From positions 1 to 38,426 of IMG/VR virus record IMGVR_UViG_3300017770_000044: a stretch of 38,426 bases of DNA. One strand, 5' to 3'. This DNA is from a virus. This document shows, one piece after another, positions 27,884 to 36,290 of the stretch. Each line of letters opens with the position of its first letter. Positions within the stretch are counted from its first letter, which is position 1. Under the pieces are notes generated by a model. It was not told where the DNA came from. It saw only the letters and a list, made by a program, of their open reading frames with translations, and searched no databases. The translations under genes were made by a program, and so were the position numbers.

Positions 27884-28162
27884 ATGGGAGTGGAACGACA
27901 GACTCAGCCCGAGTTGACGGAGTATCTCGCGAAGATGTCGATCAAGGCGATCCGCCATCGTCTCGGCTGTGGATACTCGGTCGCGGCCCGTATTCATCGA
28001 GGAAGCGTCCCGCACTGTCGGATCGCTGAGGTGATCGACATGATCGACGAGTACCTCACGATCTCGCCCTCGGTCGTCGCGGCGCTGAAGGTCGACGCGA
28101 TGAGACGGGTCCTCGATGACGTGACCGACTTCGAGCCCGAAGCCGTTCGCGTCGTCCTATGA
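27884..28162 (+). CDS. Small helical protein, probable regulator
   Basis: A 92-residue protein with an excellent ribosome binding site (AGGAGGTGA, 4 bases before the ATG). Residues about 10-60 (ELTEYLAKMSIKAIRHRLGC, GYSVAARIHRGSVPHCRIAE) resemble a compact helix-turn-helix of the Cro or CII type, with a basic recognition helix, but the match is not clear. It is the first rightward gene opposite the leftward leader, the usual place for a phage switch regulator. Its stop overlaps the helicase start as ATGA. Confidence 0.55.
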   Translation: MGVERQTQPELTEYLAKMSIKAIRHRLGCGYSVAARIHRGSVPHCRIAEVIDMIDEYLTISPSVVAALKVDAMRRVLDDVTDFEPEAVRVVL

Positions 28163-29736
28163 TCTGGAACCTCTTCGAGTTCCCCCCGAGACGATGGCAA
28201 GCCGAAGCGGTCCCCCTCGCGATGGAGGCGATCCGTCGAGGCGAGGCGGGGATCGTTCAGGCCTGCACCGGGGCGGGGAAGTCCGTCTTCACGGCGGCGA
28301 TCTGTGGGACAGTTCTCCGAACGCTCCGGCCCGGGTGGGTCGTCGTCGTGGCGGTTCCGTCCGAGGCCCTCGTCGCTCAGACCGCCGCCGCCCTCCGGAA
28401 GCCTCTCGGCGAGACGCAGGTCGGGGAGTGGTACGGTCGACGGAAGTCGAAGGACGCTCCGATCGTCGTCGTGTGCTATGACTCGCTGAGGACCTTCGTC
28501 GATGCTCTCGCGGTCGACGGTCGACGGGTCGCCCTATACCTCGCCGACGAGGTTCACCGATCGAGCGTCGACTCGGTCCTCGATGTCGTCTCGGAGATGG
28601 AGCCCGCGACACGTCTCGGACTCACCGCGACCCCGTTCCGTTCCGTCGAGGGTGAGGCCCTCCGGGGGTGGGACTCCGTGATCTATCGGTACACGATCGA
28701 TCAGGCGATCGCCGACGGCGTCCTCGTTCCGTTCCGTCCGATCCTGTGGGACGGTCCCGAAGACACGTCCGCGACTCACGCCTCGATCGACATGATCAAG
28801 GCTCACGCCCCCGAGGGTCCCGGAGTTGTCTCGGCGACGACGATCGAGGACGCGATCGAGACGGCGGAGATCCTCACGGCTCACGGGATCCCGTCCGAGC
28901 CTGTCCACTCACGGATGTCTCGGAAGGCGGTCGCCGCGACCCTCGACCGGCTTCAGTCCGGAGAGCTTCGGGCCGTCGTCCATGTCGCCCTTCTCGTCGA
29001 GGGGGTCGATCTCCCGTGGCTTCGGTGGCTGTGCATGAGGCGACCCCGGTCGGCGGCGGTCGGGATCGTTCAGGAAGTCGGGAGGGTACTCCGGACGATG
29101 TCGCAGCCGGACGCCTTCGGCTCGAAGCGGGAAGCCGTGATCCTACTTCCTCACGCGACCCCGATCCTCCGGTCGATGGCTCGCGAGGCTGATCTCGATC
29201 CGGTCGCCGCCGCGAAGGCCCTCCGGGAGAAGATGGAGGAGGAGGTGGATCCGGTCGAGCGCGCCGAGACTGATCCGACTGTCCGCCTCGCTCGATCGGT
29301 CGGGGACGTCCGGGGATACGTCGAGGAACTCTTCGAGGCCGTCGCCCGTCTTCACCAGATCGATCGATGGGACATCTCGGAGGATCAGAGACAGCGAGCC
29401 CCGAGCGTCCGACAACTTCAGGACCTCACACGGATCACGGAGGACCGGCGTCGATGGGGTGGGAGGTATCTCCCCGAGCGACATCGGGAAGCGGTCGCCG
29501 CCTTGATCGAGGTTCCGGAAGTCCTGACGATGGGAACGGCGTCCGACCTGTCTCACCTTCTCCGAGGTCTCCGTCGAGAGTCGGGTCGGAGATACCGGGC
29601 CGCCGAGGCGAAGGGTCTCCCGAAGGCGAAGAGGTTCTGGAAGGGTGTCACTGAGGAAGGGCTTCCGGATGTCCCGGAGGCGCTGATCGAAGCCGCCGAT
29701 CATGTTCGGCGGGCGAAGAGGGGGAGGGGTGCGTGA
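28159..29736 (+). CDS. SF2 DNA helicase (UvsW/RAD25/ResIII-like)
   Basis: A 525-residue ATP-dependent helicase or translocase. Motifs in order: N-terminal Q-like PRRWQAEAV (10-18), Walker A CTGAGKS (36-42), motif Ia VPSEALVAQ, Walker B ADEVH (129-133), motif III LTATPF (155-160), motif V LLVEGVDLPW and motif VI QEVGRVLRT. The C-terminal 150 residues are helical and charged. In T4 the analogous UvsW remodels branched DNA and replication forks. Starts in an ATGA overlap and ends within the methyltransferase starts (GTGA at 29733). Confidence 0.88.
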   Translation: MIWNLFEFPPRRWQAEAVPLAMEAIRRGEAGIVQACTGAGKSVFTAAICGTVLRTLRPGWVVVVAVPSEALVAQTAAALRKPLGETQVGEWYGRRKSKDAPIVVVCYDSLRTFVDALAVDGRRVALYLADEVHRSSVDSVLDVVSEMEPATRLGLTATPFRSVEGEALRGWDSVIYRYTIDQAIADGVLVPFRPILWDGPEDTSATHASIDMIKAHAPEGPGVVSATTIEDAIETAEILTAHGIPSEPVHSRMSRKAVAATLDRLQSGELRAVVHVALLVEGVDLPWLRWLCMRRPRSAAVGIVQEVGRVLRTMSQPDAFGSKREAVILLPHATPILRSMAREADLDPVAAAKALREKMEEEVDPVERAETDPTVRLARSVGDVRGYVEELFEAVARLHQIDRWDISEDQRQRAPSVRQLQDLTRITEDRRRWGGRYLPERHREAVAALIEVPEVLTMGTASDLSHLLRGLRRESGRRYRAAEAKGLPKAKRFWKGVTEEGLPDVPEALIEAADHVRRAKRGRGA

Positions 29737-30649
29737 GTTGGCACTATTTGCAGGAGGGGGTGGTGGTATCATGGGAGGGAAGCTCCTCGGATGGCGTACC
29801 GTCTGCGCTGTGGAGTCTGCTCCCTTCGCCCGGAGGATCCTCCTCGCTCGACAGCGAGACGGACATCTCGACCGCTTCCCGATCTGGGATGACGTCCGAA
29901 CCTTCGACGGTCATCCGTGGAGGGGTTCCGTCGATGTCGTCTCAGGCGGGTTCCCCTGTCAGGATATCAGCAGCGCCGGAAGGAAGGAAGGGATCACCGG
30001 AGCCCGATCTGGCCTGTGGGGGGAGATGGCGCGGATCGTTCGCGAGGTGGGACCCCGCTTCGTCTTCGTGGAGAACTCCCCAGCGCTCACTTCTCGGGGG
30101 CTCGGAGTCGTTCTCGGAGACTTGGCCTCGATGGGGTTTGATGCGAGGTGGGGCGTGCTTGGAGCGCGTCACGTTGGAGCCCCCCACAAGCGCGATCGGA
30201 TCTGGGTCGTGGCTTGCCACCCCGGCCGCGACCGCGAACCAGCTATGCCCCTCCATGCGGAAGTGGCCGGGGTGTCGGGCATGGTGGCCAACGCCTATGG
30301 CGGCGCACGGATCGAGCGGGCTCTCGGGGACCTCGGATGTCCGGATCCTTCGTCGACTCGTCGACGCGGGACAGTTGACCTATCGCGAGAGCCTCGCCCT
30401 AAGTCATGGGGCGGTCCATCGGGAGTTCGTGAACGGATCGTGGAGAGCCGATCAACTGAAGGAACACGTCGAGAGACACGGGAGGAAGTTCTCAGGCGCG
30501 GGTCGTGGTGGGAGCATGAACCCGGAGTTCGTCGAGTGGCTGATGGGGTGGCCGATCGGGTGGACCGACTTCGAGCCCTTGGCAATGGACAAGTTCCGGC
30601 GGTGGCTGCGCTCGCTTGGAGCCTACTAACCGCCGGGTGGAATGACTAA
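29729..30649 (+). CDS. DNA C5-cytosine methyltransferase
   Basis: Transfers a methyl group to C5 of cytosine in a specific sequence, usually for protection of phage DNA from restriction. Counted from GTG 29729 (306 residues): motif I ELALFAGGGGG (3-13), motif IV GGFPCQDIS with catalytic Cys77, motif VI FVENSP (Glu115), motif VIII HKRDRIW (153-159), and motif X ALGNGQVPAVAAL near the end after RVADGVADRVDR. The segment between motif VIII and motif X has weaker codon bias in this frame. GTG 29729 is a poor start (GGAGG immediately adjacent); TTG 29738 is possible. A second frame overlaps almost the whole gene. Confidence 0.87.
   Translation: MRELALFAGGGGGIMGGKLLGWRTVCAVESAPFARRILLARQRDGHLDRFPIWDDVRTFDGHPWRGSVDVVSGGFPCQDISSAGRKEGITGARSGLWGEMARIVREVGPRFVFVENSPALTSRGLGVVLGDLASMGFDARWGVLGARHVGAPHKRDRIWVVACHPGRDREPAMPLHAEVAGVSGMVANAYGGARIERALGDLGCPDPSSTRRRGTVDLSREPRPKSWGGPSGVRERIVESRSTEGTRRETREEVLRRGSWWEHEPGVRRVADGVADRVDRLRALGNGQVPAVAALAWSLLTAGWND
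29733..30629 (+). CDS. Overlapping frame of methyltransferase gene (MSWHYLQ-type protein)
   Basis: A 298-residue open frame, +1 to the methyltransferase frame. GTG 29733 has the better initiation context of the two: GGAGG five bases upstream and a GTGA overlap with the helicase stop, this phage's favourite junction. The protein opens VSWHYLQEG, includes SSSWRTPQRSLL, SFSETWPRWGLMRGG and WWPTPMAA, and ends in MNPEFVEWLMGWPIGWTD. From memory, such proteins are often annotated as hypothetical beside C5 methyltransferases. In bases 30339-30539 my hand count gives G or C at 48 of 67 third positions in this frame, against 31 of 67 in the methyltransferase frame. Confidence 0.55.
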   Translation: MSWHYLQEGVVVSWEGSSSDGVPSALWSLLPSPGGSSSLDSETDISTASRSGMTSEPSTVIRGGVPSMSSQAGSPVRISAAPEGRKGSPEPDLACGGRWRGSFARWDPASSSWRTPQRSLLGGSESFSETWPRWGLMRGGACLERVTLEPPTSAIGSGSWLATPAATANQLCPSMRKWPGCRAWWPTPMAAHGSSGLSGTSDVRILRRLVDAGQLTYRESLALSHGAVHREFVNGSWRADQLKEHVERHGRKFSGAGRGGSMNPEFVEWLMGWPIGWTDFEPLAMDKFRRWLRSLGAY

Positions 30650-34561: not shown

Positions 34562-34737
34562 CCGCCGATCACTTCGCCCTCTTCCTCTTCGTCGTGTGCA
34601 TCCTGATCGGGGTCGCGTATGTCGACCCGGCTCAGGTCCCCCTCTCGGCGCTCGCCGGGATGGCGGTCCTCCTCTTCGGGATCGCGGTCGTCGCCGTCGT
34701 CGCTCTCGTTCAGGTCGCCCGGGACGTGAACCGATGA
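34558..34737 (+). CDS. Small two-helix membrane protein, holin candidate
   Basis: A 59-residue protein that starts in an ATGA overlap with the RuvC-like gene. Residues about 6-22 (FALFLFVVCILIGVAYV) and 30-54 (LSALAGMAVLLFGIAVVAVV) are hydrophobic, separated by a short polar loop; the end is basic (ARDVNR). This two-helix hairpin and size fit class II holins, which would pair with the amidase about 3 kb downstream in the same orientation. It is not next to the endolysin, so the assignment is open. Confidence 0.5.
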   Translation: MTADHFALFLFVVCILIGVAYVDPAQVPLSALAGMAVLLFGIAVVAVVALVQVARDVNR

Positions 34738-36290
34738 TCGGGGCGCCCCCACGGGTTCACCTCGGGGACTGTCTCGACCTGATGAGGTCACTCCCCGAGA
34801 ACTCCGTCGACTCGATCGTGTGCGATCCGCCCTACGGCCTGAGCCCGGACGGTCGCTCTCGAACGTGGGACGAACTCGCCGCCCTTCGCGCCGAGGGTCG
34901 AGGTCCTCGCGGCGGCTTCATGGGTCAACACTGGGACGCAGGCGTGCCCGGGGTGTCGTGGGCTCGGGAGTGTCTTCGAGTTCTGAAGCCCGGGGGACAC
35001 TTGATCGCGTTCGCGTCGACCCGGACGGTCCATCGGCTCGCCGTCGCCATCGAGGACGCCGGACTGCAGATCCGCGATCAGGTCGGCTGGGTCTATTGGA
35101 GCGGGTTCCCCAAGTCCCGATCCGTCTCGATGGACATCGACCGCCGGGACGCCGCCGAGGCTCAGCATCTCCGGCGGCTCCGGTTCACCGCGTGGATCAG
35201 GTCGACAGGCCTCACCGCTCGACAGATCAACGAAGCGACGAACACGGCGATGGGTGGCCACTACACGACCGAAGCCACACAGCCCGCGATCATGACGAGG
35301 GAACACCTCGACGCGGTTCGTCACCTTCTCCCCGAGAGCCCTCCTCGATGGGTCGAAGAGGAGGTCGCGATCCGTTCGGTCGAGTCCGAGAACGCGAAGA
35401 GGCGCGAAGTCATCGGGAGCCGGAGCGCCGGGATCAGTCTTCCGGGCGAGGGTCCTCGTCACACGATCGGAGGCTCGGGGACTGTCTCGGTCGACATCAC
35501 CCTCGGACACACAGCCGACGCTCGAAGGTGGGACGGATGGGGGTCGGCGCTGAAGCCCGCGATCGAGCCTGCGGTCTTCGCTCGGAAGGCTCCCGACAGA
35601 TCCCTCGTCGACTCCGTCCTTCGATGGGAGGTCGGTCCCCTGAACGTCGACGCCTGTCGGTTCCTCCCGGGCGATCCGGGGTGGATAGGTCCGAACGATG
35701 ACACCGATCGACGTCGCCCGAGCGCCGGAGGTGAGAACGGCCTGCGAGGATCTTCGACCTTCAAGATCCGCGAACGCCGAGTCGAGGATCAAGCCGTGAT
35801 CGCCGGACGCTTCCCCGCGAACTTATACCACTGTCCGAAGCCGTCGAGGCGCGAACGCGAACGGGGGACCGCTGGCCTCCCGACCCGGACCGGAGCCGAA
35901 GCGGTTCAGAGGAGGGAAGGGACCGCTGGCCTCGACAATCCGAGAGCCGGAGCCGGTCGGACCGCGTCGGAGGTGAGGAACTTCCACCCGACCGTGAAGC
36001 CTGTCCGGCTGATGAGATGGCTCGGGCGCCTCGTCACTCCTCCGGGCGGACTCATCCTTGATCCGTTCTGTGGCTCGGGGACGATGGGGATCGCAGCGAG
36101 CTTGGAGGGCTTCCGGTATCTCGGCGCCGAGATGTCTCCCGAGTATCATCGGATCGCCGAGGCCCGGATCCGTCACGCCGTCGAGCGCCCTCGGGCGTGG
36201 AGGGACACGGAGCCCGGACCGCCGATCGACATTCCGAAGCCGGTCGCCATCGACCCGGCTCAGATCTCACTCTTCGGGGGGACGACATGA
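34734..36290 (+). CDS. DNA N6-adenine or N4-cytosine methyltransferase (beta-type motif order)
   Basis: A 518-residue methyltransferase. Motif IV DPPY is at 31-34 and motif I DPFCGSG at 443-449, so the catalytic motif precedes the AdoMet motif, as in the beta group. The start HLGDCLDLMRSLPENSVDSI is the common N-terminal pattern. A long insert (about 110-430) must contain the target recognition domain; it has the DGWGSALKPAIEPAVFARKA block common in phage enzymes. DPPY does not by itself separate N6-A from N4-C. ATG 34734 overlaps the previous stop. Confidence 0.87.
   Translation: MIGAPPRVHLGDCLDLMRSLPENSVDSIVCDPPYGLSPDGRSRTWDELAALRAEGRGPRGGFMGQHWDAGVPGVSWARECLRVLKPGGHLIAFASTRTVHRLAVAIEDAGLQIRDQVGWVYWSGFPKSRSVSMDIDRRDAAEAQHLRRLRFTAWIRSTGLTARQINEATNTAMGGHYTTEATQPAIMTREHLDAVRHLLPESPPRWVEEEVAIRSVESENAKRREVIGSRSAGISLPGEGPRHTIGGSGTVSVDITLGHTADARRWDGWGSALKPAIEPAVFARKAPDRSLVDSVLRWEVGPLNVDACRFLPGDPGWIGPNDDTDRRRPSAGGENGLRGSSTFKIRERRVEDQAVIAGRFPANLYHCPKPSRRERERGTAGLPTRTGAEAVQRREGTAGLDNPRAGAGRTASEVRNFHPTVKPVRLMRWLGRLVTPPGGLILDPFCGSGTMGIAASLEGFRYLGAEMSPEYHRIAEARIRHAVERPRAWRDTEPGPPIDIPKPVAIDPAQISLFGGTT

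Follow-up and report, generated by a model that had tools for sequence, protein, structure and literature searches.

The window, i.e. the whole stretch of 38,426 nucleotides of viral DNA analysed here (IMG/VR record IMGVR_UViG_3300017770_000044), contains a locus that most likely encodes one two-subunit C5-cytosine methyltransferase from two overlapping reading frames. Frame A would encode alpha, the catalytic subunit, and frame B, located in +1 of frame A, would encode beta, the subunit providing target recognition and motif IX. That motif IX is missing from alpha and present in beta, that alpha is unconstrained between motifs VIII and X, and that rare relatives carry motif X in beta is shown by computation, while the translation of frame B, the physical association of the two products, the need for both of them, the enzymatic activity, the target-recognition role of beta and a protective role of the enzyme are all inferred.

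Frame A (29729..30649, + strand) has a GTG start that is homologous to MNELALFAGAGGG, and an in-frame ATG is present upstream, at 29702. Frame B (29733..30629, + strand), which also has a GTG start, potentially encodes a putative beta of 298 aa comprising an N-terminal region of unknown role, a putative target-recognition region and motif IX. The Shine-Dalgarno-like sequence GGGGGAGGGG (29720..29729, + strand), whose role is inferred, includes GGAGG at 29723-29727, which is 5 nt ahead of GTG 29733 and 1 nt ahead of GTG 29729. The claim of the initial annotation that GTG 29733 has the better ribosome binding site was upheld by this spacing. The frame B start also overlaps, within GTGA (29733..29736, + strand), the TGA stop of an upstream helicase ORF (28159-29736), and frame B is inferred to be translationally coupled to the termination of that ORF.

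Other regions of the window bear genes typical of a contractile-tail phage (134-22041), including those for portal, head protease, tail sheath, tape measure and baseplate wedge proteins, with the terminase on the minus strand. A second methyltransferase gene, of the N6/N4 type (PF01555), is located at 34596-36290; its two conserved parts are separated by ~300 residues, and a 293-aa ORF (34820-35701) lies in its +2 frame. None of the scanned neighbours of the frame A/B gene was recognisable as coding for a restriction enzyme, and in this respect the gene looks like a phage orphan methylase.

Sequence computation showed that frame B is a real, ancient and conserved gene under its own selection, its translation being inferred. 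The initial annotation had described two long frames open over the same stretch, and this held, far beyond chance. When the codons of frame A were shuffled synonymously so as to preserve its protein, frame B of the window stayed open in 0.9% of 1000 shuffles, and in the homologues it was free of stops in 0.5% on average. The similarity of frame B to that of the window was above every shuffle in 77/77 loci. A search of viral contigs with frame B yielded 230 relatives, and in the best 80 of them frame B was open and in +1 of a frame-A relative. A second search was performed with frame A alone, so that loci were not chosen by frame B. Frame B was present in 80/80 of these viral loci, always in +1, and in 79 of them it ran uninterrupted to its natural end. 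The single locus with an internal stop, at ~53% of the frame B length, was L130, where decay, a sequencing error or a shorter beta is possible. Among bacterial and archaeal genomes, 80 further loci were obtained by profile search, all of which had frame B on frame A in +1. Over motifs I-VIII, frame B was open in 158/158 loci (5.5% expected), and the other alternative (third) frame was open in 0/158. No standalone frame B without an overlapping frame A was found among the analysed 80 genome loci, phage and plasmid records. Frame B matched phrog_1008 (E 6.4e-26), named DNA methyltransferase in PHROGs, and had no match in Pfam or PADLOC.

The start codon of beta is protected through the codon choice of alpha and is under strong selection. 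Most homologues begin ATGAATGAG, in which the alpha start is followed, 4 nt further on, by the beta ATG. This ATG requires that Asn-2 of alpha be encoded by AAT, because AAC breaks it. The Asn-2 codon was AAT in 125/125 homologues, while Asn codons elsewhere in these alphas comprised 170 AAT versus 438 AAC (28% AAT).

The share of each frame in the coding load changes along the gene, as indicated by the codon-position divergence measured in 35 independent homologue pairs over three segments. In motifs I-VIII, divergence at alpha positions 1/2/3 was 0.103/0.049/0.241, and the A-type pattern was found in 35/35 pairs. Between motifs VIII and IX, it was 0.517/0.303/0.296 (B3 0.517, B1 0.303, B2 0.296), peaking at the third position of beta, with a B-type pattern in 33/35 pairs. 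From motif IX to the end the values were 0.180/0.075/0.182, balanced between the frames. Conditional randomisation was then applied, in which one protein was fixed, the transition/transversion pattern was kept and stops were forbidden in the other frame. The constraint on B given A reached z = 9.2 (I-VIII), 3.6 (VIII-IX) and 5.0 (IX-end), and that on A given B z = 11.7, 0.0 and 6.4, respectively. These results demonstrated that the amino acids of beta are constrained in all three segments beyond what frame A dictates. An apparent frame A constraint in the target-recognition region (z 8.5 in the first conditional test) was gone (z 0.0) once stop codons were controlled, so that the alpha residues between motifs VIII and X matter only for keeping the frame open to motif X.

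Within motifs I-VIII, the strongest beta constraint was found in the SETWPRWG block. The conserved beta block SETWPRWGLMRGGAC (30114..30158, + strand) overlaps the part of alpha that lies between motifs VI and VIII; in this stretch the third positions of alpha diverge less (0.119) than the first positions (0.149), and columns P132, W134, G135, M137 and G140 of A3 are invariant. From a hand count of third-position G or C over 30339-30539, the initial annotation had proposed that, between motifs VIII and X, coding is primarily in frame B. The count was confirmed (48/67 in frame B, 31/66 in frame A) and so was the proposal, given the 33/35 pairs and the absence of any amino-acid constraint on frame A. 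The same annotation had stated that it would be refuted by a frame B interrupted by stops in close homologues, or unconstrained while frame A is constrained throughout. This check was run and did not refute it, frame B being uninterrupted in 79/80 frame-A-selected loci and constrained in every segment.

Frame A matches PF00145 (E 1.2e-27) over residues 13-177 only, and phrog_363 (E 1.9e-64). Its single chain bears motifs I, IV (PCQ), VI (ENx), VIII and X, i.e. I-VIII and X overall. Motif IV, GGFPCQD, with the catalytic Cys77 (numbered from GTG 29729), is at 29945..29965, motif VI, FVENS, at 30065..30079 and motif VIII, GAPHKRDRIW, at 30176..30205, all on the + strand. Motif IX and a target-recognition region are missing from this chain, motif IX being found in frame B, and motif IX is absent from alpha in all aligned homologues of the window alpha's type. 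The alpha profile aligns to M.HhaI 15-179, i.e. motifs I-VIII only. The AF2 model of alpha is folded up to residue 171, with pLDDT <50 for residues 172-291, and its best matches in a structure search were M.HaeIII (1dct) and M.HhaI (1fjx). The window alpha is ~29-49% identical to the alphas of named phages. A few alphas carry internal stops (L036, L038 and L162).

On the + strand, beta motif IX, SMNPEFVEWLMGWPIGWTD, occupies 30513..30569 and alpha motif X, DRLRALGNGQVPAV, occupies 30563..30604, the latter overlapping the C-terminal PLAMDKFRRWLRS of beta (30576-30614). The frame B end MNPEFVEWLMGWPIGWTD had been noted in the initial annotation, which missed that MNPEFVEWLMGWPIGWTD is motif IX, absent from frame A. 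Across 61 sequences, the beta end contains the near-invariant residues LNPxWVEWLMGWPxGWTD. The motifs were identified by comparison with single-frame relatives of the Gordonia phage CheeseTouch type, which bear RLSAAFAEWMMGLPxGWVTDPxIGISRxxQLKAIGNGVCPQQ in frame A and whose single chain matches PF00145 over 1-316 of 324. The beta end aligned to columns 11-34 of this template, corresponding to motif IX (hhalign P 97.5%, E 8.7e-12), and the alpha end to columns 29-57, corresponding to motif X (profile alignment, E 1.1e-9). According to these alignments, motif IX comes from beta and motif X from alpha, and the DNA encoding them overlaps.

The putative target-recognition region of frame B (30206..30512, + strand) has repeated W/L-x-TPxA elements. 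The AF2 model of beta alone was poor (mean pLDDT 55.9). A PDB fold search with this model gave no match, but such a search is meaningless on a model of that quality, and no significant hit emerged from a profile search of the PDB with beta. The poor model might be that of an obligate subunit, but it could equally be that of a disordered protein. Since beta alone was not confidently modelled, the assignment of its variable, WPTP-rich part to target recognition rests on position and evolution and not on structure. The variable region is thus inferred to be the target-recognition domain, its fold not being shown.

Natural variants of the gene were also found. In L003, L022 and L240, alpha is only ~170-183 residues long, stopping just past motif VIII, with many stops beyond in the alpha frame, and beta carries both motifs IX and X. 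Beta of the C72C1 type has an open frame from around alpha codon 56 onwards and stops just past motif IX in 50/62 cases; the codon-position pattern also passes to frame B between motifs VIII and IX. Motif IX in +1 together with motif X in alpha was seen in named phages and plasmids, among them Salmonella S9-5, Acinetobacter ABMM1, Leptospira p2, Stenotrophomonas S72, Pseudomonas PS-1, Klebsiella BUCT711, Microcystis Mel-JY01, Lacticaseibacillus R23.9, Mycobacterium Spikelee and Paenibacillus Diva. Database annotation differs from record to record: the inspected E. coli record has alpha only, a P. aeruginosa plasmid record has beta only, labelled hypothetical protein, and Paenibacillus phage records have both.

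More distant C5 methylases, from Enterobacteriaceae genomes (L394-L410) and E. coli PT62 (L390:58-1044), show the same overlap relation, their +1 frame bearing WPTP elements and the motif IX QLNPAHSRWLMGLPxEW. In L248, of the CheeseTouch type, and its relatives L257-L298, motifs IX and X are in frame A, yet a very long +1 frame is open over motifs I-VIII and the target-recognition region, where the codon-position signal is mixed. These might represent a third arrangement. Insertions were observed at two loci. In L021 (3660-4150), ~490 nt containing a short ORF are inserted within motif IX of the alpha/beta gene, and both frames resume afterwards; no Rfam intron match was found for this insertion, which is possibly a mobile intron. 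In L047 (690-1070), an insertion with an HNH-endonuclease-like ORF (CARCGG...HRHHLDNDTTNNRKTNLAILCARCH) is located between motifs IX and X, and this locus, considered as a variant with motif X in beta, was dropped for that reason. The two insertions are at about the same place, which suggests a homing site.

In the favoured two-subunit reading, alpha would carry the AdoMet-binding and catalytic motifs I-VIII together with the C-terminal motif X, and beta the target-recognition region and motif IX. One ribosome-binding region would serve both genes, with beta coupled to the termination of the upstream helicase ORF. The two products would assemble into an active enzyme, which is inferred to protect the phage genome, probably through methylation. 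Points that weigh against this reading are the poor model of beta alone, the published placing of the M.EcoHK31I target-recognition domain in the larger subunit, the stop inside frame B of L130 and the internal stops of a few alphas.

Among the meanings proposed in the initial annotation, that of two proteins from one gene, or a partner protein, is supported by the evidence. A shifted fusion is not fully excluded. In its elaborated form, which we regard as very unlikely, a single polypeptide would be made by programmed frameshifting, with ribosomes following alpha through motif VIII, frame B over the target-recognition part and motif IX, and alpha again for motif X. The coding load does switch frame at exactly those points, and in L003, L022 and L240 a single shift past motif VIII would yield a complete single-chain enzyme. 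However, the window type needs two shifts, and frameshifting leaves unexplained the selected start codon of B and its constrained N-terminal half (z 9.2). Such a fusion is not needed, given that frame B has a conserved start of its own and that the N-terminal half of its product is constrained.

It is also very unlikely that B is translated but has a separate job, as a regulator, anti-restriction protein or decoy, while alpha methylates alone. The lack of a Pfam match, a PADLOC match or a confident fold for beta would be compatible with this. Against it, the aligned alphas have no motif IX, whereas beta has it, together with motif X in some phages. As alpha is devoid of motif IX and its VIII-X stretch is unconstrained and predicted to be disordered, alpha alone would have no target-recognition part. 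The decoy proposed in the initial annotation found no support. Finally, frame B could be untranslated, its openness and similarity resulting from frame A and base composition, since long open frames are common in the G+C-rich window. This explanation is refuted at the level of sequence evolution and all but excluded: synonymous shuffles break B, its similarity exceeds that of all shuffles in each of the 77 loci, and B-specific constraint is found in every segment.

Returning to the two-subunit reading, a bolder version, judged moderately more likely than not, is that two-subunit enzymes of this kind, with the specificity subunit in +1 of the catalytic gene, make up a large class among the C5 methyltransferases of phages and prophages, from Pseudomonadota, Bacillota, Actinomycetota, cyanobacterial and other hosts. 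Databases would then usually hold one frame, and the target-recognition sequence of the annotated frame would be meaningless. M.EcoHK31I would be one described example of something common, and its target-recognition domain would belong to beta and not, as published, to the larger subunit; a biochemical oddity would become a widespread design. The many annotated phage C5 methylases that seemingly lack a target-recognition domain would be explained and their missing specificity subunit supplied; the annotated frame expressed alone is predicted to fail. Annotations usually omit the second gene, which was found in nearly all of the related methylase genes examined in phages and prophages. The same-strand overlap is very long (~300 codons) and kept across deep divergence, with a measurable hand-over of coding load, which makes this gene a good system for the study of two proteins sharing one DNA.

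In the literature searched, from which most subscription journals were outside, no report of an overlapping beta gene in phages was found, while the split enzymes M.AquI and M.EcoHK31I were. Paenibacillus larvae phage Diva has a comparable gene, g50, located in +1 inside the methyltransferase gene g49 and ending in the same motif IX; it is annotated merely as 'g49 internal gene', hypothetical, and starts further downstream than the window beta. Like the single-chain enzymes M.HhaI and M.HaeIII, to which it is related by the alignment and model matches described above, the window alpha has the catalytic motifs in one chain, but motif IX and the target-recognition region of the window are in a different reading frame. 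M.AquI (CYCGRG) is split before motif IX, its alpha having motifs I-VIII and its beta IX-X (PMC3404938). This division is met in the relatives L003, L022 and L240; unlike M.AquI, the window has motif X in alpha and an almost complete overlap of the two genes.

The closest parallel is M.EcoHK31I (YGGCCR), a two-polypeptide enzyme in which the larger chain has motifs I-VIII and X and the smaller has motif IX alone (PMC3404938), the same distribution as in the window. Its smaller polypeptide is reportedly read from a different frame within the gene of the larger one (Lee, Kam and Shaw 1995), and the window shares this nested organisation. The window beta differs in beginning 4 nt after the alpha start and in spanning nearly the whole gene. 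The predicted target-recognition domain of M.EcoHK31I was assigned to the larger subunit (PMC3404938); in the window, unlike that assignment, the VIII-IX constraint lies in frame B and the target-recognition region maps to beta. By analogy of motif layout alone, both products may be needed for methylation, as are both polypeptides of M.EcoHK31I in vitro, and the window locus may thus work like M.EcoHK31I in an extended form.
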